Shown: positions 2,779 to 10,959 of the stretch, piece after piece | Layout: each line of letters opens with the position of its first letter | Numbering within the stretch: the stretch's first letter is position 1 | Origin: Psychrobacillus lasiicapitis | GTDB lineage: Bacteria > Bacillota > Bacilli > Bacillales_A > Planococcaceae | Assembly (NCBI RefSeq): GCF_006861795.1 | Contig: NZ_VDGH01000004.1 | Span: 248,001-312,000, forward strand | Direction of reading: 5' to 3' | Length of the DNA: 64,000 nucleotides | Notes under the pieces: model-generated | What the model saw: only the letters and a program-made list of their open reading frames with translations | What the model was told of the DNA's origin: nothing | The model's database searches: none | Translations under genes and position numbers: made by a program

Positions 2779-2906
2779 TTTCTTCACTCCTGTTCCTAGA
2801 TTTTAATTTTACATGCAAGAATATGATTGTCAACGAAAGAATCTTACGTTATGATAAATGAGAAGTGCAATAAGTTGCGAAAAAGAAAACGGGGGTGTGC
2901 ATATTT

Positions 2907-4925
2907 TTGCAAAACATACTCATTGTAGGTGCAGGTAACGGTGGATATGCACTTCTGAAGTTGATGGAACAGGCGGATTACTTACAAGTAACAGCAATTG
3001 TTGATATCAACGAAGAAGCTCCTGGAATGATTTACGCTAAAGAGCATCACATTTCAACTTATTCAGATTGGAAGCCTCTTTTAAGCGGAAATATTCAAAT
3101 CATCATTGATGTAACAGGGAATAGAGAGGTTTTTCAAGAACTTCTTGTAAATAGACCTGCAACTGCGGTAGTTATACCAGGTGAAATTGCTAACTTAATC
3201 GTTACGTTACTAGAAGAAAAAGATGATTATATTCAGATTATCGATCGTAAAAAAATGATGCAAGAATTAATTTTTAACTCTATCGAAGAAGGCATGATTG
3301 GGATAGACGACCAGGGAATCGTCAATTTTTTCAACAAAAGTGCAGAAAAAATGACAAAAATGCCAAGAGAAAAGGCTATTGGGAAGCATGTGCATGAAGT
3401 AATAGGCTTAAGTGAATTACCGAGAATATTCGAGACTGGTAGTGTCGAATTAAACAAAGAACTCACTCTTGAAAGCGGTACCAAAATTGTCACGTCAAGG
3501 TATCCGATGATTAATGAAGAGGGAAAAAGGGTCGGTGCATTCGCAGTATTTAAGGATATTACAGAGGTGCTTCGTCTTGCAGAAGAGATTACCAATTTAA
3601 CAGAAATACAAAAAATGTTAGAAGCCATTATATATTCGAGTGATGATGCAATATCTGTAGTGGATGAAGAAGGAAAAGGGATTCTTATTAACCCTGCATA
3701 TACTCGAATTACTGGTTTTAGCGAAGAGGAAGTAATCGGTAGACCTGCGACAGCGGATATTTCTGAAGGGGAAAGTATTCATTTAAAAGTGTTGCAAACG
3801 AAAAAGCCGATTCGTGGGGTAAATCTTCGTGTTGGAAAACAGAAAAAAGAAGTGATTGTAAATGTTGCACCAATCATCGTGAATAGCGAGCTAAAGGGAA
3901 GTGTCGGTGTAATTCATGACATGACGGAGATGCGTGGTCTGATGAAAGAGCTGGATCGTGCAAAAACGCTTATTCGTACCTTGGAATTATCGTATTCTTT
4001 AAAGGATATTTCAGGAAAATCGAAACAGATAAATTTTGCGATAGATCAAGCAAGACTGGCAGCAAGTGTACCTGTTACCGTTCTCTTAAGGGGAGAGGTT
4101 GGTTCAGGGAAGGATTTATTTGCCCATGCTATTCATAGTGAAAGCTCCAGAGCACCTCATCCATTTATCCGAGTTAATTGTAGTGCTTTGGAAGAACATT
4201 TATTAGAAAAAGAATTATTTGGCTTTGAAGAAAACGGATTGAGTCAAGCGGGACTATTCGAAAATGCTGAACACGGTACTATTTTCTTGGACGAAGTTGG
4301 GGAACTTACGAAAAAGACGCAAGCAAAATTGCTACGTGTTCTAAGAGAAAATATCATCATACGGGTAGGAGGGTCTTCTTCTATTCCGGTAGATGTACGG
4401 GTCATTGCAGCGAGTAGTTTAAATCTAGAAAAAGCAATGCGTGAAGGTACATTTAGAGAAGATTTTTATTTCCAATTAAATCGAATGCCTATCCATATTC
4501 CAGCATTAAGTGAGCGAAAAGAAGATATTCCGATAATTGCGGAACACTTACTGGTAAAGCTAAATCAAGAATTTGGTCGGAACGTGGAAGGTTTCACAGA
4601 GGAAGCGATGGACAGCTTGCTTGCCTATGATTGGCCCGGAAATGTGCGAGAACTAGAAAACATTATTAGTCGTTCTATGATTTTCTTGCAGCCGAACGAT
4701 CGTTTTGTCGAAGAACAGCATCTACCAAAGTCGATGCTTGCGATAGAAAATAAAGACGATGATGAGCCGATCGGCACGCTAGCAGAACAAATGGATGAGA
4801 TGGAAAAGAAAGTGTTAGCACGGGCGCTCAAAGCATCCGGGGGAAATAAATCGCAAACAGCTAAAAAACTTCAAATTTCTCTTCGCACACTATATTATAA
4901 GCTAGAAAAATATCAGTTAGTTTAA
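2907..4925 (+). CDS. bkdR: BkdR-type regulator with degenerate sigma-54 AAA+ domain
   Basis: Regulator of branched-chain amino acid degradation, about 672 aa. Domain order: a Rossmann-like N-terminus (ILIVGAGNGGYALL), two PAS domains (about 115-230 and 240-350), an NtrC-type AAA+ domain (about 365-600) and a Fis-type helix-turn-helix at the end (SGGNKSQTAKKLQISLRTLY). Walker A (GEVGSGKD) and Walker B (GTIFLDEV) are intact. The GAFTGA loop that contacts sigma-54 is missing: after ELFG at about residue 436 the sequence runs FEENGLSQAGLFE, about six residues shorter than usual. The R-finger segment reads FREDFYFQLN, with Gln at about 522 where Arg is usual. TTG at 2907 is preferred because GGGGGTG lies just upstream; GTG at 2895 overlaps that site. 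Its position directly before bcd supports BkdR. Confidence 0.85.
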   Translation: MQNILIVGAGNGGYALLKLMEQADYLQVTAIVDINEEAPGMIYAKEHHISTYSDWKPLLSGNIQIIIDVTGNREVFQELLVNRPATAVVIPGEIANLIVTLLEEKDDYIQIIDRKKMMQELIFNSIEEGMIGIDDQGIVNFFNKSAEKMTKMPREKAIGKHVHEVIGLSELPRIFETGSVELNKELTLESGTKIVTSRYPMINEEGKRVGAFAVFKDITEVLRLAEEITNLTEIQKMLEAIIYSSDDAISVVDEEGKGILINPAYTRITGFSEEEVIGRPATADISEGESIHLKVLQTKKPIRGVNLRVGKQKKEVIVNVAPIIVNSELKGSVGVIHDMTEMRGLMKELDRAKTLIRTLELSYSLKDISGKSKQINFAIDQARLAASVPVTVLLRGEVGSGKDLFAHAIHSESSRAPHPFIRVNCSALEEHLLEKELFGFEENGLSQAGLFENAEHGTIFLDEVGELTKKTQAKLLRVLRENIIIRVGGSSSIPVDVRVIAASSLNLEKAMREGTFREDFYFQLNRMPIHIPALSERKEDIPIIAEHLLVKLNQEFGRNVEGFTEEAMDSLLAYDWPGNVRELENIISRSMIFLQPNDRFVEEQHLPKSMLAIENKDDDEPIGTLAEQMDEMEKKVLARALKASGGNKSQTAKKLQISLRTLYYKLEKYQLV

Positions 4926-4998
4926 AATGGGAGTTATTTTCACATAACAAGGGGTATTTATATATATAACAGAAATTACTATCTAGGAGGAATTACAC

Positions 4999-6093
4999 AT
5001 GGAAATTTTCAAATATATGGAGACTTACGATTATGAGCAATTAGTTTTTTGCCAAGACAAAACATCAGGATTGAAAGCAATTATTGCAATTCATGACACT
5101 ACGCTTGGACCAGCACTTGGTGGAACTCGTATGTGGAATTATGCGTCTGAAGAAGAGGCGATTGAAGATGCACTACGCTTAGCAAAAGGAATGACTTATA
5201 AAAATGCTGCTGCTGGTCTAAATCTTGGTGGCGGGAAAACAGTTATTATTGGTGATCCATTAAAAGATAAAAACGAAGAAATGTTCCGCGCATTTGGTCG
5301 TTTCATCCAAGGGCTAAACGGTCGTTATATTACAGCAGAAGATGTTGGTACTACAGTAGCAGATATGGATATTATTCATGAGGAAACAAATTATGTAACT
5401 GGTATTTCAGAAGCATTCGGTTCATCGGGTAATCCATCACCAGTAACTGCTTATGGTGTATATGTAGGGATGAAAGCTGCTGCAAAAGAGGCTTTTGGTT
5501 CTGATTCACTTGAAGGCAAAACAGTTGCCGTTCAAGGTGTGGGAAATGTTGCATACACATTATGCGATTATTTACACAAAGAAGGTGCAAAACTAATTGT
5601 TGCTGATATTAACCAGGCTTCAGTTGACCGAGCTGTAAATGCGTTTGATGCTGTTCAAGTTGGAGTAGATGAAATTTACTCTCAAGATGCAGATATTTTC
5701 GCACCATGTGCACTAGGTGCAATTATTAATGACAACACAATTCCGCAACTAAAAGCAAAAGTAATTGCAGGTTCTGCAAATAATCAATTAAAAGATACAA
5801 AACATGGTGATATCATCCACGAAATGGGTATTGTTTATGCACCGGACTATGTGATCAATTCAGGTGGCGTGATTAACGTAGCAGACGAATTATATGGCTA
5901 TAATCACGATCGTGCAATGAAACGTGTTTCTGGAATATATGATACAATTGAAAAGATTTTCGCTATTTCTAAAAGAGATGAGATTCCAACATACGTAGCA
6001 GCAGACCGACTAGCTGAAGAACGCATTGAGCGTGTTGGGAAATCTCGTAGCCAATTTTTACAAAATGGCAAACATATTATTACTAATCGATAA
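4999..6093 (+). CDS. bcd: Leucine dehydrogenase
   Basis: NAD-dependent leucine (branched-chain amino acid) dehydrogenase, 364 aa, which reversibly deaminates Leu, Ile and Val to their 2-keto acids. The N-terminal half carries the Glu/Leu/Phe/Val dehydrogenase substrate site with the catalytic-lysine motif [14 protein letters not shown]. The C-terminal half is a Rossmann domain with [11 protein letters not shown]. Length is normal for the family. It has a strong AGGAGG site and follows bkdR by 73 bp. Ptb, which precedes bcd in B. subtilis, is missing. The product feeds the BKDH complex encoded downstream. Confidence 0.95.
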
Positions 6094-6122
6094 TATTAAA
6101 TAGACGGATCATAGAAAATAAA

Positions 6123-6178
6123 TGATAACCAAATGATGGGCCGACTTTGAAAAAAGCGGCCTTCTTCGTTCTAAATTG
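6123..6178 (+). terminator. Possible attenuator hairpin between bcd and lpdV
   Basis: GGCCG ... CGGCC forms a short stem followed by a T-rich but interrupted run. It could trim read-through from bcd into the BKDH genes. Weak: the stem is only 5 bp and there is no clean T tract. Confidence 0.3.
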
Positions 6179-6207
6179 GTTTTGTTCAGTATTAAGGAGG
6201 CAAGGTC

Positions 6208-7638
6208 GTGGCAAAAGAATATGATGTAGTCATCATTGGTGGCGGTACAGGCGGTTATGTGGCTGCTATTCGGGCAGCTCAATTAGGATTAAAAACTGCA
6301 ATTGTAGAAAAAGGCAATCTTGGAGGTACATGTTTACATAAAGGGTGTATTCCAAGTAAAGCATTGCTTCGCAGCGCAGAAGTATATGCAACAACCAAAA
6401 ATCATGCAGCAGACTTCGGTGTAAACACAGGAGAAGTGACACTAGACTTCAGCCGTGTGCAGGCTCGTAAAGAATCGATTGTTAGCGGATTACATCAAGG
6501 CGTTCAGGGACTCATGAAAAAAGGTAAAATTGATGTGTTAGAAGGTACAGGAAGAATGCTTGGTCCTTCTATTTTTTCTCCATCACCAGGTGGAACAATT
6601 TCAGTCGAAATGAATAATGGTGATGAAAACGAAATGCTTATCCCGAAAAACGTAGTGATTGCGACAGGTTCCAGACCACGTACTTTACCGGGTCTAACAA
6701 TTGATGGAACCCTTGTCATGAGTTCAGATGAAGCGCTTGCGATGACTGAATTGCCACAATCAATTTTAATAGTAGGCGGCGGTGTAATAGGTATTGAGTG
6801 GGCTTCCATGTTAAATGACTTCGGTGTAAAAGTGACTGTTATTGAGTATGCAGATCGTATCATACCAACAGAAGATAAAGATATTTCCAAAGAAATGCAA
6901 AAATTACTTGCTAAAAAAGGAGTCGCTTTTGCAACAAGTGCAAAAGTACTTCCAGAAACTTTGGAAACGGCAAACGATCAAGTTACCATTTCAGCAGAAA
7001 TAAATGGTGAAAATAAAACATTCACAGCTGAGAAAATGCTTGTTTCAGTTGGTCGCCAAGCAAATGTAGAAGGTATTGGTATTGAAAATACCGATATCGT
7101 TGTAGAAAAAGGATTTATCCAAGTATCTGAAACATTCCAAACAAAAGAATCACATATTTATGCTATTGGCGATGTAATCGGAGGTCTCCAACTAGCACAT
7201 GTGGCGAGTCACGAAGGTATCACAGCTATAGAGCATATCGCGGGTAACGACATTTCACCGATTGACTACAAACTAGTTTCACGTTGTATTTATTCAAATC
7301 CAGAAGCCTCTAGTGTTGGAATTACAGAGCAACAAGCAAAAGAGCAAGGATTTGACGTGAAAGTTGGTAAATTCTCTTTTAAAGCGATTGGAAAAGCGCT
7401 TGTTTATGGCGAATCAGATGGTTTTGTCAAAATCGTTGCAGATAAGAAAACGGATGATATATTAGGTGTTCATATGATTGGACCTCATGTAACAGATATG
7501 ATTTCAGAGGCAGGTCTAGCTATGGTTCTGGATGCAACTCCTTGGGAAATCGCACATACGATTCACCCACACCCAACACTGAGTGAAGTTATGGGAGAAG
7601 CGGCACTTGCCGTAGATGGTAAAGCAATTCATATGTAA
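6208..7638 (+). CDS. lpdV: Dihydrolipoyl dehydrogenase, BKDH E3
   Basis: FAD-dependent dihydrolipoamide dehydrogenase (E3), 476 aa, which reoxidises the lipoyl arm of E2 with NAD. Seen: N-terminal GGGTGGYVAAIRAAQLG dinucleotide fold, redox-active disulfide motif GGTCLHKGCIPSKA, a second NAD-binding GGGVIGIEWA, and the C-terminal catalytic HPHPTLSE. GTG start at 6208 behind AAGGAGG. It opens a tight run lpdV-bkdAA-bkdAB-bkdB with gaps of 16, -1 and 12 bp, so these four are one transcript. The context marks it as the branched-chain-specific E3 rather than the pyruvate dehydrogenase E3. Confidence 0.95.
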   Translation: MAKEYDVVIIGGGTGGYVAAIRAAQLGLKTAIVEKGNLGGTCLHKGCIPSKALLRSAEVYATTKNHAADFGVNTGEVTLDFSRVQARKESIVSGLHQGVQGLMKKGKIDVLEGTGRMLGPSIFSPSPGGTISVEMNNGDENEMLIPKNVVIATGSRPRTLPGLTIDGTLVMSSDEALAMTELPQSILIVGGGVIGIEWASMLNDFGVKVTVIEYADRIIPTEDKDISKEMQKLLAKKGVAFATSAKVLPETLETANDQVTISAEINGENKTFTAEKMLVSVGRQANVEGIGIENTDIVVEKGFIQVSETFQTKESHIYAIGDVIGGLQLAHVASHEGITAIEHIAGNDISPIDYKLVSRCIYSNPEASSVGITEQQAKEQGFDVKVGKFSFKAIGKALVYGESDGFVKIVADKKTDDILGVHMIGPHVTDMISEAGLAMVLDATPWEIAHTIHPHPTLSEVMGEAALAVDGKAIHM

Positions 7639-7654
7639 AAAGGAGGAGTTCTAT

Positions 7655-8665
7655 ATGACAACAAATCGTCACGCAGAATTAGGGTTAACAAATGAAGATG
7701 TGCTAAAAATGTTTGAAACGATGCTTATGGCACGTCGTATCGATGAACGTATGTGGTTATTAAACCGAGCAGGTAAAATTCCTTTTGTTATTTCTTGTCA
7801 AGGGCAAGAAGCAGCACAAGTAGGAGCGGCATTTGCTTTAGATAATACAAAAGATTATATTGCGCCGTATTACCGCGATATGGGTGTTGTTTTACACTTT
7901 GGTATGACGGCAAAAGATCTAATGCTATCCGCTTTTGCAAAAGCGGAGGATCCAAACTCTGGCGGTCGACAAATGCCAGGTCATTTTGGTCAAAAGAAAA
8001 ATAGAATTCTGACTGGTTCTTCACCGGTTACTACTCAATTACCACATGCAGTGGGGGTTGCTTTAGCTGCAAAAATAGAAAAGAAGGATTTTATTACGTT
8101 TGTAACATTAGGAGAAGGTTCTTCCAACCAAGGAGATTTCCACGAAGGATTAAACTTTGCGGGAGTTCACCAATTGCCGTGTATCACAATGGTTGAAAAC
8201 AATAATTATGCTATTTCTGTGCCTTTTGAAAGACAAGTTGCGAGTAAAACGGTTGCAGACCGTGCATCTAGTTACGGAATGCCAGGTGTGAGGGTAGATG
8301 GAAAAGATCCGATTGAGGTTTATAAAGTAGTAAAAGAAGCAGCAGATCGTGCTCGTAACGGAGAAGGACCAAGCTTAATCGAAGCGGTAACCTATCGTTT
8401 AACTGCACACTCATCGGATGATGATGATCGTCAGTACCGCACTGCGGAGGACATTGCAGAAGGAAAAGCATTAGATCCGCTAATCACGTTTGCAAAATAT
8501 TTAAGAGATAATGATATTTTAACTGCAGAATTAGAAAAAGAAATTAACGACCGCATCATGAAGGAAGTAAATGAGGCAACAGATTATGCAGAAAACGCAC
8601 CATATGCTGCTCCAGAAGATGCATTGAAACATGTATATGCAGAAAAAGATGGGGGGAACGCATAA
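7655..8665 (+). CDS. bkdAA: Branched-chain 2-oxoacid dehydrogenase E1 alpha
   Basis: Thiamine-diphosphate-dependent E1 alpha subunit, 336 aa, which decarboxylates branched-chain 2-keto acids together with BkdAB. Seen: GSSPVTTQLPHAVG, and the ThDP motif region GEGSSNQGDFHEGLN ending in VENNNYAISVP, plus the conserved YRLTAHSSDDD loop. ATG at 7655 is chosen because AAAAGGAGGAG lies just before it; a longer frame beginning at 7616 overlaps lpdV and has no ribosome-binding site. It abuts bkdAB with a 1-base overlap, as expected for a heterotetramer pair. Confidence 0.95.
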   Translation: MTTNRHAELGLTNEDVLKMFETMLMARRIDERMWLLNRAGKIPFVISCQGQEAAQVGAAFALDNTKDYIAPYYRDMGVVLHFGMTAKDLMLSAFAKAEDPNSGGRQMPGHFGQKKNRILTGSSPVTTQLPHAVGVALAAKIEKKDFITFVTLGEGSSNQGDFHEGLNFAGVHQLPCITMVENNNYAISVPFERQVASKTVADRASSYGMPGVRVDGKDPIEVYKVVKEAADRARNGEGPSLIEAVTYRLTAHSSDDDDRQYRTAEDIAEGKALDPLITFAKYLRDNDILTAELEKEINDRIMKEVNEATDYAENAPYAAPEDALKHVYAEKDGGNA

Positions 8666-9648
8666 TGGCAATCATGTCTTATATCGATGCAATAACACTT
8701 GCAATGAAAGAAGAAATGACTCGCGATGAGCGCGTATTCGTTCTTGGGGAAGACGTAGGTAGAAAAGGCGGCGTTTTTAAAGCGACGAATGGCCTTTATG
8801 ATGAATTCGGTGAATACCGCGTTTTAGACACACCTCTTGCTGAATCTGCTATTGCAGGTGTAGGTATTGGTGCTGCAATGTACGGGCTTCGTCCAATTGC
8901 GGAGATGCAATTTGCAGATTTTATCATGCCTGCAGTCAATCAAATTATTTCAGAAGCTGCGCGTATTCGTTATCGTTCGAATAATGACTGGACTTGTCCA
9001 ATTGTTATTCGTGCCCCGTTCGGCGGAGGCATTCATGGTGCTCTTTACCACTCACAATCAGTGGAAGCTGTTTTTGCGAACCAACCAGGATTGAAAATTG
9101 TCATTCCTTCTACTCCTTACGATGCAAAAGGATTGTTAAAAGCGGCGATTCGCGATGAAGATCCGGTTATGTTCTTTGAGCATAAACGTGCGTATCGTCT
9201 TATTAAAGGGGAAGTTCCAGAAGAAGATTATACGATTGAAATCGGAAAAGCTGATGTAAAACGGGAAGGCGAAGACATTACGGTTATTACGTATGGTCTT
9301 GCTGTTCACTTTGCGTTGCAAGCTGCAGAACGTTTAGAAAAAGACGGAATTTCTGCTCATATCCTTGACCTACGGACAATTTATCCATTAGATAAAGAAG
9401 CTATTATAGAAGCAGCATCCAAAACGGGTAAAGTACTTCTTGTCACTGAGGATAATAAAGAGGGAAGTGTCATTAGTGAAGTGGCGGCAATCATTGCAGA
9501 AAATTGCTTGTTTGATTTAGATGCACCAATCATGCGTCTTGCTGGTCCGGATGTTCCTGCTATGCCATATGCGCCAACAATGGAAAAATTCTTTATGATC
9601 AATCCAGATAAAGTAGAAAAAGCGATGCGCGAGCTAGCGGAATATTAA
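8665..9648 (+). CDS. bkdAB: Branched-chain 2-oxoacid dehydrogenase E1 beta
   Basis: E1 beta subunit, 327 aa, partner of BkdAA. Seen: FVLGEDVGRKGGVFKAT at the N-terminus, EMQFADFIMPAVNQI in the pyrimidine-binding half, FGGGIHGALYHSQSVEA and the C-terminal transketolase-type domain with VLLVTEDNKEGSV. Length is standard. A second in-frame ATG lies 4 codons downstream; the first has the better-spaced GGGGGG ribosome-binding site. The enzyme makes isovaleryl-, isobutyryl- and 2-methylbutyryl-CoA, also the primers of iso/anteiso fatty acids that dominate membranes in this group. Confidence 0.95.
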   Translation: MAIMSYIDAITLAMKEEMTRDERVFVLGEDVGRKGGVFKATNGLYDEFGEYRVLDTPLAESAIAGVGIGAAMYGLRPIAEMQFADFIMPAVNQIISEAARIRYRSNNDWTCPIVIRAPFGGGIHGALYHSQSVEAVFANQPGLKIVIPSTPYDAKGLLKAAIRDEDPVMFFEHKRAYRLIKGEVPEEDYTIEIGKADVKREGEDITVITYGLAVHFALQAAERLEKDGISAHILDLRTIYPLDKEAIIEAASKTGKVLLVTEDNKEGSVISEVAAIIAENCLFDLDAPIMRLAGPDVPAMPYAPTMEKFFMINPDKVEKAMRELAEY

Positions 9649-9660
9649 GGAGGGACTAAC

Positions 9661-10959
9661 ATGGCTTTAGAACAAATCAAAATGCCTCAACTTGGTGAAA
9701 GTGTAACGGAAGGAACAATTGAAAAATGGTTGGTAAAACCAGGCGATCATGTCAATAAATACGACGCTTTAGCGGAAGTAAATACAGACAAAGTAACAGC
9801 TGAAGTACCCTCTTCTTTTACAGGAGTTATTAAAGAGCTTATTGCAAATGAAGGAGATACACTAGCGGTTGGAGAAATCGTTTGTACGATAGAAACTGAA
9901 GGTGGAGCTACCGAAGAAGTAGTGGAATCCGCTCCAGAACAGCCAACTGCTGAAACAGTTAAACCAGCAGAAGTACAAAAGCATACTGCACCGGTTAACC
10001 GTGAAAAAGGAGCAAAAGCTCGCTATTCACCAGCAGTACTAAAATTATCACAAGAACATGGAATTGACCTTTCGTTAGTTAGTGGAACAGGCAACGAAGG
10101 ACGAATTACACGCAAAGATTTACTGAAAATCATTGAGAGTGGAGAAATTCCAGTAGCAGCACAGGCTGAACCAGTAGTTGAGCAAACACAAGCAACACCA
10201 CAAGCTCAAGTGACAGCTCCACCAAAAGCTGCTCCTGTAAATGTTCCTGTATCAGCTGGAGATATTGAAATACCAGTAACAGGTGTTCGTAAAGCAATAG
10301 CAGCGAATATGCTACGCAGTAAACATGAAGCTCCACATGCTTGGACAATGATTGAAGTAGATGTAACGAATATGGTTCAATACCGAGACTCTATTAAAAA
10401 TGACTTCAAACAAAAAGAAGGCTTTAATGTTACGTACTTCGCTTTCTTTGTAAAGGCTGTATCACAAGCTCTGAAAGAATTCCCAATGATGAATTCCATG
10501 TGGGCTGGAGATAAAATTATACAGAAAAAAGATATCAATATTTCCATCGCTGTTGCGACTGAGGATGCACTTTTTGTTCCAGTCATCAAAAATGCGGATG
10601 AGAAAACAATCAAAGGCATCGCTCGTGAGGTCAATGAACTTGCTGCAAAAGTTCGCTCTGGGAAGTTAAAATCAGACGAAATGCAAGGTGGTACATTCAC
10701 TGTAAACAACACAGGATCATTTGGTTCTGTTCAATCTATGGGAATTATCAACTACCCTCAAGCAGCCATTCTTCAAGTAGAATCCATCGTAAAACGTCCA
10801 GTTATTATGGACGGTGGAATGATTGCAGCTCGTGACATGGTAAACCTATGTTTATCACTTGATCACCGAGTACTAGACGGTTTAGTTGCTGGTCGTTTCC
10901 TAGCACGAGTGAAAGAGATCTTGGAGAATATTACAAAAGAGAATACGTCTGTGTATTAA
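9661..10959 (+). CDS. bkdB: BKDH E2, dihydrolipoyl acyltransferase
   Basis: E2 core of the branched-chain 2-oxoacid dehydrogenase, 432 aa. Domain order: lipoyl domain (1-77) with lipoyl lysine in NTDKVTAEV, an Ala/Pro/Gln/Thr-rich linker, peripheral-subunit-binding domain (about 120-157: YSPAVLKLSQEHGID...GRITRKD), a second Ala/Pro linker, then the catalytic acyltransferase domain (about 200-428) ending in the active-site motif SLDHRVLDG. Excellent ribosome-binding site AAGGAGGG. It is the last gene of the operon, followed by a strong terminator. Confidence 0.95.
   Translation: MALEQIKMPQLGESVTEGTIEKWLVKPGDHVNKYDALAEVNTDKVTAEVPSSFTGVIKELIANEGDTLAVGEIVCTIETEGGATEEVVESAPEQPTAETVKPAEVQKHTAPVNREKGAKARYSPAVLKLSQEHGIDLSLVSGTGNEGRITRKDLLKIIESGEIPVAAQAEPVVEQTQATPQAQVTAPPKAAPVNVPVSAGDIEIPVTGVRKAIAANMLRSKHEAPHAWTMIEVDVTNMVQYRDSIKNDFKQKEGFNVTYFAFFVKAVSQALKEFPMMNSMWAGDKIIQKKDINISIAVATEDALFVPVIKNADEKTIKGIAREVNELAAKVRSGKLKSDEMQGGTFTVNNTGSFGSVQSMGIINYPQAAILQVESIVKRPVIMDGGMIAARDMVNLCLSLDHRVLDGLVAGRFLARVKEILENITKENTSVY

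Follow-up and report, generated by a model that had tools for sequence, protein, structure and literature searches.

A BkdR of Psychrobacillus lasiicapitis without the sigma-54 contact loop, predicted to act as a sigma-A roadblock repressor of the bkdR-bkd operon

BkdR of Bacillus subtilis and B. thuringiensis is a sigma-54 activator of the bkd genes. In B. thuringiensis its target is the promoter ahead of HD73_4468, TTGGCACGGTATTTGCT, which it activates (PMC4428206), and B. subtilis BkdR carries GAFSGA, which is counted as functional (PMC3162934). Loss of the GAFTGA motif with a shift to sigma-70 has been described for other enhancer-binding proteins (EBPs) (PMC3162934, PMC10274813). Among them, NtrC of Caulobacter has an eight-residue deletion in the L1 loop and represses its own operon (PMC10274813). 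Here we analysed bkdR (2907..4925, forward strand) in a stretch of 64,000 nucleotides of P. lasiicapitis (contig NZ_VDGH01000004.1, positions 248,001 to 312,000), which we call the window. The encoded BkdR has the same domain order, helix-turn-helix (HTH) and gene neighbourhood as BkdR of the two Bacillus species, but the GAFTGA loop, the finger arginine and the -24/-12 target are missing. From sequence comparison we predict, with a probability of roughly 0.6, that this former sigma-54 activator has become a roadblock repressor of the bkdR-bkd operon at a sigma-A promoter.

Between ELFG and GLFE the AAA+ domain reads FEENGLSQA (4224..4250, +), that is nine residues compared with 15 in an example GAFTGA-bearing copy; the shortening by about six residues stated in the initial annotation is thus exact. 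The second finger arginine, which senses the gamma-phosphate, was correctly described as replaced by Gln (4473..4475, +), the segment being FREDFYFQLN in the window and FREDLYYRLN or near to it in GAFTGA-bearing copies. In NtrC1 the arginine reaching the neighbour's gamma-phosphate is R299, analogous to PspF R168 (PMC7175178). The Gln of BkdR aligns with NtrC1 R299, a position set by alignment and spacing. A third change had not been noted before: at sensor I, Ser-Ser replaces Thr-Asn (4413..4418, +). Of the 19 genus genomes, 15 have SS here and the other 4 have SY, and all 12 GAFTGA-bearing copies of the family have TN. Walker A (GEVGSGKD, 4092..4115, +) and Walker B (FLDEVGEL, 4284..4307, +) are intact, as annotated. 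Alignment with relatives revealed the loop loss and the Gln in 19/19 genus genomes, and we therefore ruled out a sequencing error, and chance, behind them.

An AlphaFold2 model built with 12 sequences (mean predicted local distance difference test 82, near 90 in the AAA+ core) retained the fold of the AAA+ domain and showed a short hairpin where L1 would be. Its predicted template modelling score was 0.43, therefore the placement of the domains is unreliable. In a structure comparison four solved domains tied for the best Z, those of FleQ, NtrX, NtrC1 and LuxO, and VpsR came lower down; such likeness of the AAA+ domain reflects a shared fold and is no proof of function.

To see how widespread these changes are, we sampled 250 family genomes evenly out of a larger set. 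At a cut-off of E 1e-120 or better, 137 of them, in 9 of 19 genera, contained a BkdR orthologue; the genera are numbered, g1 being the genus of the window (19 genomes) and g2 its sister genus. The window's BkdR has the domain order Rossmann-PAS-PAS-AAA+-HTH and the position ahead of the bkd genes that define this orthologue group. Ten copies from other families of the class, from the 10 of 24 genomes whose single match reached at least E 1e-180, formed the outgroup and completed the alignment (n=147); split or partial copies of G048 and G051 were left unused. Defined as G-A/S-F-T/S-G-A, the loop motif was intact in g5 (3/3), g17 (4/4), five of nine g11 copies and the whole outgroup (10/10). 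It was absent from g1 (19/19), g2 (4/4), g3 (42/42, two of them truncated), g4 (8/8), g7 (46/46, one truncated) and g12 (2/2). The finger arginine was lost in g1 (19/19), g2 (4/4) and g3 (40/40 readable copies) and kept in every readable copy of the remaining genera and the outgroup. Outside the family, Neobacillus soli, Anoxybacillus sediminis and a Gottfriedia genome combine GAFTGA or GAFSGA with a -24/-12 site; such a site is also present in Bacillus sp. CGMCC 1.16541, whose loop was not read by the pattern used.

The check for an absence of SigL suggested in the initial annotation had the opposite outcome: the window's genome encodes SigL (PF04552, E 1.5e-59, and also PF04963). SigL is encoded in 13/19 g1 genomes, the window's included, so its loss was ruled out as the cause of the change in BkdR. 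The six other g1 genomes gave no strong match to the second SigL domain either; four of them had second-domain matches only at E 2e-4 to 5e-4, and one of these, with its neighbours, lies above the family cut-off, as does a second weak match in the window's genome. SigL was found in 66 of the 137 family genomes with BkdR and in 9/10 of the outgroup. Because 57 of the 125 loop-less copies occur with SigL and 68 without, BkdR has parted from sigma-54 even where the cell goes on encoding that factor, and has been retained in many cells that do not encode it. The window's genome contains 18 matches to the EBP AAA+ domain, 12 of them strong and eight of these 12 with a GAFTGA-like motif. Three further EBP-type proteins of the genome lack GAFTGA (G000:C1:159548-160045, L010; C24:281058-281546, L011; C27:187129-187623, L012); B. 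subtilis YplP is a known EBP of this kind (PMC3162934).

It is very probable that BkdR is uncoupled from sigma-54. The initial annotation had left open whether it would act at sigma-A promoters or bind without activating. The uncoupling gained support from the lack of a -24/-12 site within 330 bp after bkdR and from a predicted operator on a sigma-A-like promoter; of the two outcomes, the position of that operator favours binding without activation, as a repressor.

This promoter-like sequence consists of a sigma-A-type -35-like box TTGTCA (2827..2832, +) and, 17 bp after it, a -10-like box TATGAT (2850..2855, +), both present at this spacing in 19/19 genus genomes. The predicted BkdR operator O1, TGCAATAAGTTGCG (2866..2879, +), has one mismatch to TGCAA-N4-TTGCA and would cover the predicted transcript from about +4 to +17. 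It starts 10 bp 3' of the -10 box in 19/19 genomes, where shuffling gave an expectation of 0.19 of 19. A possible second operator O2, TGCATATTTTTGCA (2898..2911, +), is placed over the start codon at a distance of 32 bp from O1, overlapping the coding sequence, and was found in 15/19 g1 genomes and two more, and in g2 in 4/4. The pattern TTGTCA-N17-TANNNT, followed after 10 or 11 bp by the palindrome, occurs in g1 (19/19), g2 (4/4), g3 (42/42) and g4 (8/8). The -10 box is TATGAT in all copies of g1 and g4 (8/8), and TATGAT or TATTAT in g3 (42/42). In the alignments the palindrome arms are the most constant part, and the N4 and the flanks vary. The GAFTGA-bearing g5 (3/3) and g11 (8/9) also have this promoter-palindrome arrangement, with the palindrome 10-17 bp behind the -10 box of bkdR. 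Exact palindromes number 15 in the window's genome, compared with 2 for the reversed pattern; because 13 of the 15 are intragenic, we claim no wider BkdR regulon.

The gap between bkdR and bcd (4926..4998, +; 73 bp) contains neither palindrome, -24/-12 site nor terminator-like hairpin, and with up to 3 mismatches no -24/-12 site was detected within the 330 bp after bkdR in any of the 19 g1 genomes. In GAFTGA-bearing genomes of the family the gap holds, as a rule, two TGCAA-N4-TTGCA palindromes about 19-20 bp apart and a -24/-12 site of the TTGGCAC type; by eye, many of these gaps also have a site like the catabolite-responsive element (cre). Allowing two mismatches, a -24/-12 site followed bkdR in 20/22 motif-bearing copies versus 1/125 motif-less ones. 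Over the whole window, matches to the -24/-12 pattern were no more than chance would give (7 against an expected 4.9). Downstream palindromes were absent from g1, g2 and g4 together (0/31) and found in 3/42 g3 genomes. In g7 the downstream palindrome was kept in 45/46, and where the -24/-12 site would be there is a TTATAT-N17-TGTTTTAAT-like sequence, which by eye reads as a promoter. The spacing between bkdR and the bkd gene found after it (ptb or bcd) was 15-17 bp in g2, 34-46 bp in g4, 73-164 bp in g1 and 15-992 bp in g3 (median 20 bp, 41/42 placed); elsewhere it was 173-199 bp in g5, 171-403 bp in g17, 130-137 bp in g11 and 125-313 bp in the outgroup. Terminator-like hairpins occurred in the gap in g5 (2/3), g17 (3/4) and the outgroup (4/10, two of the four over palindromes), and in g7 in 8/46, four over palindromes and four far inside the next gene. 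None was detected in the gaps of g1 (19), g2 (4), g3 (41), g4 (8) and g12 (0/2).

The gene bkdR is under purifying selection. Pooled Nei-Gojobori ratios of nonsynonymous to synonymous change (dN/dS) over the 17 intact g1 copies were 0.06 for PAS, 0.08 for AAA+, 0.06 for HTH and 0.16 for the N-domain. Over 27 codons around the loop the ratio was 0.22 in g1, 0.013 in g5 and 0.055 in g11; pairs with a proportion of synonymous differences (pS) of 0.6 or more were excluded, and g17 yielded a value for HTH only. From the low ratios, higher around the loop, we concluded that BkdR is in use and that the loop is freer to vary. A tree of 87/147 copies was built by a quick search on an alignment stripped of the columns for loop, finger and sensor I, with support from the Shimodaira-Hasegawa-like approximate likelihood ratio test; eight broken, truncated or short-matched copies were omitted, and g3 was thinned to 16 and g7 to 14. 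Every genus formed one clade, g1 and g2 were sisters (99), as were g3 and g4 (93), and g1-g4 came together at 86. On this tree the finger arginine was lost twice. If no regain is assumed, GAFTGA would have been lost at least four times, in g1-g4, in g7 with g12 and twice within g11, a count that depends in part on the 86% branch.

We propose the following course of events. With L1 and its GAFTGA gone and the trans-acting finger arginine replaced by Gln, BkdR would be unable to touch sigma-54 or to couple ATP hydrolysis to it. Through its unchanged HTH it would still bind the ancestral palindrome TGCAA-N4-TTGCA, as the co-occurrence of the two suggests. GAFTGA-bearing relatives in the family carry two palindromes ahead of the sigma-54 site of bkd; g5 and g11 have a further copy behind the sigma-A-type bkdR promoter, which would serve autoregulation. 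From g1 and from g2, g3 and g4, the BkdR lineages nearest to it, the sigma-54 site and the pair have gone, the distance between bkdR and the bkd genes is smaller, and the sole remaining site is the autoregulatory one, 10-11 bp behind the -10 box. With a transcript start presumed near 2862, BkdR sitting on roughly +4 to +17, and with O2 around +36, would block sigma-A transcription of the bkdR-bcd-lpdV-bkd operon. Release may come from a signal at the Rossmann/PAS part, with branched-chain substrate, keto acid or NAD state as candidates. For the family as a whole, we give an even chance to two routes away from sigma-54 and at least four departures. In g1-g4 the autoregulatory operator would have become the sole control of the pathway and the activator a repressor, with SigL still present in many species; in g7 and g12 the -24/-12 promoter would have been rebuilt in place as a sigma-A promoter under the old pair of upstream activating sequences (UAS).

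BkdR could instead be a sigma-A activator of the kind of TyrR or Rhodobacter NtrC, aiding the ordinary polymerase without ATP hydrolysis. GAFTGA-less relatives do include sigma-70 activators (PMC10274813, PMC3162934), and in g7 the UAS pair kept upstream of the TTATAT-N17-extended -10-like site has, by eye, an activation-type geometry. In g1, however, the conserved site lies downstream of the -10 box and no palindrome separates bkdR from bcd, which makes an activator unlikely. Still less probable, in our view, is a BkdR in decay that has lost nearly all function and retains slight autoregulation. Finger, loop and sensor I are all altered, 113/250 family genomes have no orthologue at the threshold, and the reading frame is broken in 2/19 g1 genomes (near residue 120 in L034, genome G016; near residue 211 in L044, genome G002). 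Against such decay stand the dN/dS of 0.06-0.08 in PAS, AAA+ and HTH of the intact copies and the operator kept in 19/19, also ahead of the two broken genes, where the promoter is intact too. In some g1 scans (downstream palindrome and -24/-12 site, O2, promoter alignment) G016 and G002 were scored as misses, their match starting mid-gene. We consider it highly improbable that BkdR activates sigma-54 at a distant promoter through another surface: SigL is present and the Walker motifs are intact, but GAFTGA and the finger arginine are absent in 19/19, six g1 genomes have bkdR (one with a broken frame) and no SigL, and nearly all exact palindromes are intragenic.

Several observations weigh against the roadblock repressor, the broken frames included. 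The model leaves the retention of Walker A and B unexplained. The promoter boxes are consensus matches and the transcript start is assumed. One-mismatch palindromes are no rarer in the window than chance (4 found, 3.5 expected), and the combined promoter-operator pattern, with 1 match in the window and 0 in 100 shuffles, was derived from the same site; the palindrome as a single site being at chance level, the weight rests on its position and conservation. The upstream promoter-operator was not found in g17 (0/4) or the outgroup (0/10), so autoregulation, with its site in g5 and g11, is older than the loss in only part of the family. In g7 an upstream site lies behind other, weaker -10 boxes in 46/46 and the downstream pair is also kept, hence the upstream site alone is no marker of the switch. 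Hairpins were absent in the GAFTGA-bearing g11 too (0/9), so the hairpin argument stands on g5 and g17. By eye, AGGGGTATT occurs in the g1 gap (4926-4998) in 14/19 genomes and may be a promoter of bcd's own or another site, which makes the case for a fused operon weaker in g1 than it is in g2-g4. G270, which lacks GAFTGA, has one sequence scored as a -24/-12 site that its relatives do not have. G099 (GSFTGA) and G140 (GAFTGA) lack the -24/-12 site and SigL, and in G126 and the outgroup genome G058 motif and promoter are present and SigL was not found. Finally, parsimony with regain allowed gave 3 changes of the GAFTGA state.

The bkdR open reading frame spans 2895-4925 (+). TTG 2907 is the likelier start than GTG 2895, because the predicted ribosome-binding stretch GGGGGTG overlaps the GTG and because the relatives G017 and G010 have an in-frame TGA directly 3' of the GTG and keep the TTG. 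The encoded protein comprises a Rossmann-like N-domain, two PAS domains, AAA+ (profile match to the sigma-54 activator domain PF00158, E 7.7e-52), lid and a Fis-type HTH (HTH_8, 4791..4913, +; intact, dN/dS as above); WPGNVRELEN and the HTH are unimpaired. With 26.7 bits the N-domain (2907-3257) is above the Pfam cut-off of 24 for the GFO_IDH_MocA NAD-binding Rossmann domain, and the regulator may therefore sense NAD state. Directly after bkdR follows bcd (leucine/valine dehydrogenase type, 4999..6093, +), then lpdV, bkdAA, AB and B, names assigned by gene order and families. Here (4999-10959) bcd adjoins bkdR; in many relatives ptb comes first, e.g. in 36/41 placed g3 copies. A sigma-B-like reading of AGGGGTATT before bcd, made by eye, was dropped, as the spacing differs between species.

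As a control we used 24 family genomes without BkdR. In 22 of them bcd was matched with an E value of 1e-80 or lower, and these loci were scanned over 1500 bp upstream; two second copies, 50% identical (L286, L287), were left out, and G111 and G275 represent the same locus, which leaves 21 different ones. The palindrome was found at 1/22 loci, at -275, and a -24/-12 site at 0/22 within the 1500 bp. By eye, several of these loci (L264-L285), where bcd is kept, have a AAGTATTGTAAA stretch and a cre-like site ahead and may represent a third fate of the operon.

Since GAFTGA loss with a shift to sigma-70 was already known, the kind of change is not new. We found no publication on a loop-less BkdR in the open-access literature searched, subscription papers being outside its scope. 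What seems new is the repeated, traceable rewiring of one well-studied sigma-54 activator across most of the family, where the cis sites can still be read. GAFTGA-less EBPs have so far been described as single cases; for BkdR the stages are visible, from intact copies through those in which GAFVGA or DAFAGA accompanies a decayed promoter to the promoter rebuilt, the loop cut out, the finger lost and the gene lost. With one orthologue in so many stages and a readable binding site, the order in which protein and promoter change on leaving sigma-54 becomes testable. Labelling BkdR orthologues as sigma-54-dependent would be wrong for 125/137 in this family.

By AAA+ structure the top row was FleQ, with a VIA-align Z of 30.7, within 1 of NtrX, NtrC1 and LuxO. 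FleQ is a repressor at sigma-70 promoters and an activator at sigma-54 ones, and keeps its sigma-54 role. The lesion of the window's BkdR is the same as in the GAFTGA-less EBPs tied to sigma-70, namely TyrR, DhaR, HupR, VpsR and NtrC of Rhodobacter and Caulobacter, and as in these homologues the L1 motif is lost and the HTH kept; further GAFTGA-less EBPs are listed in PMC3162934. These proteins regulate other pathways, whereas BkdR can be traced from the intact to the lost state together with its promoter and operators.
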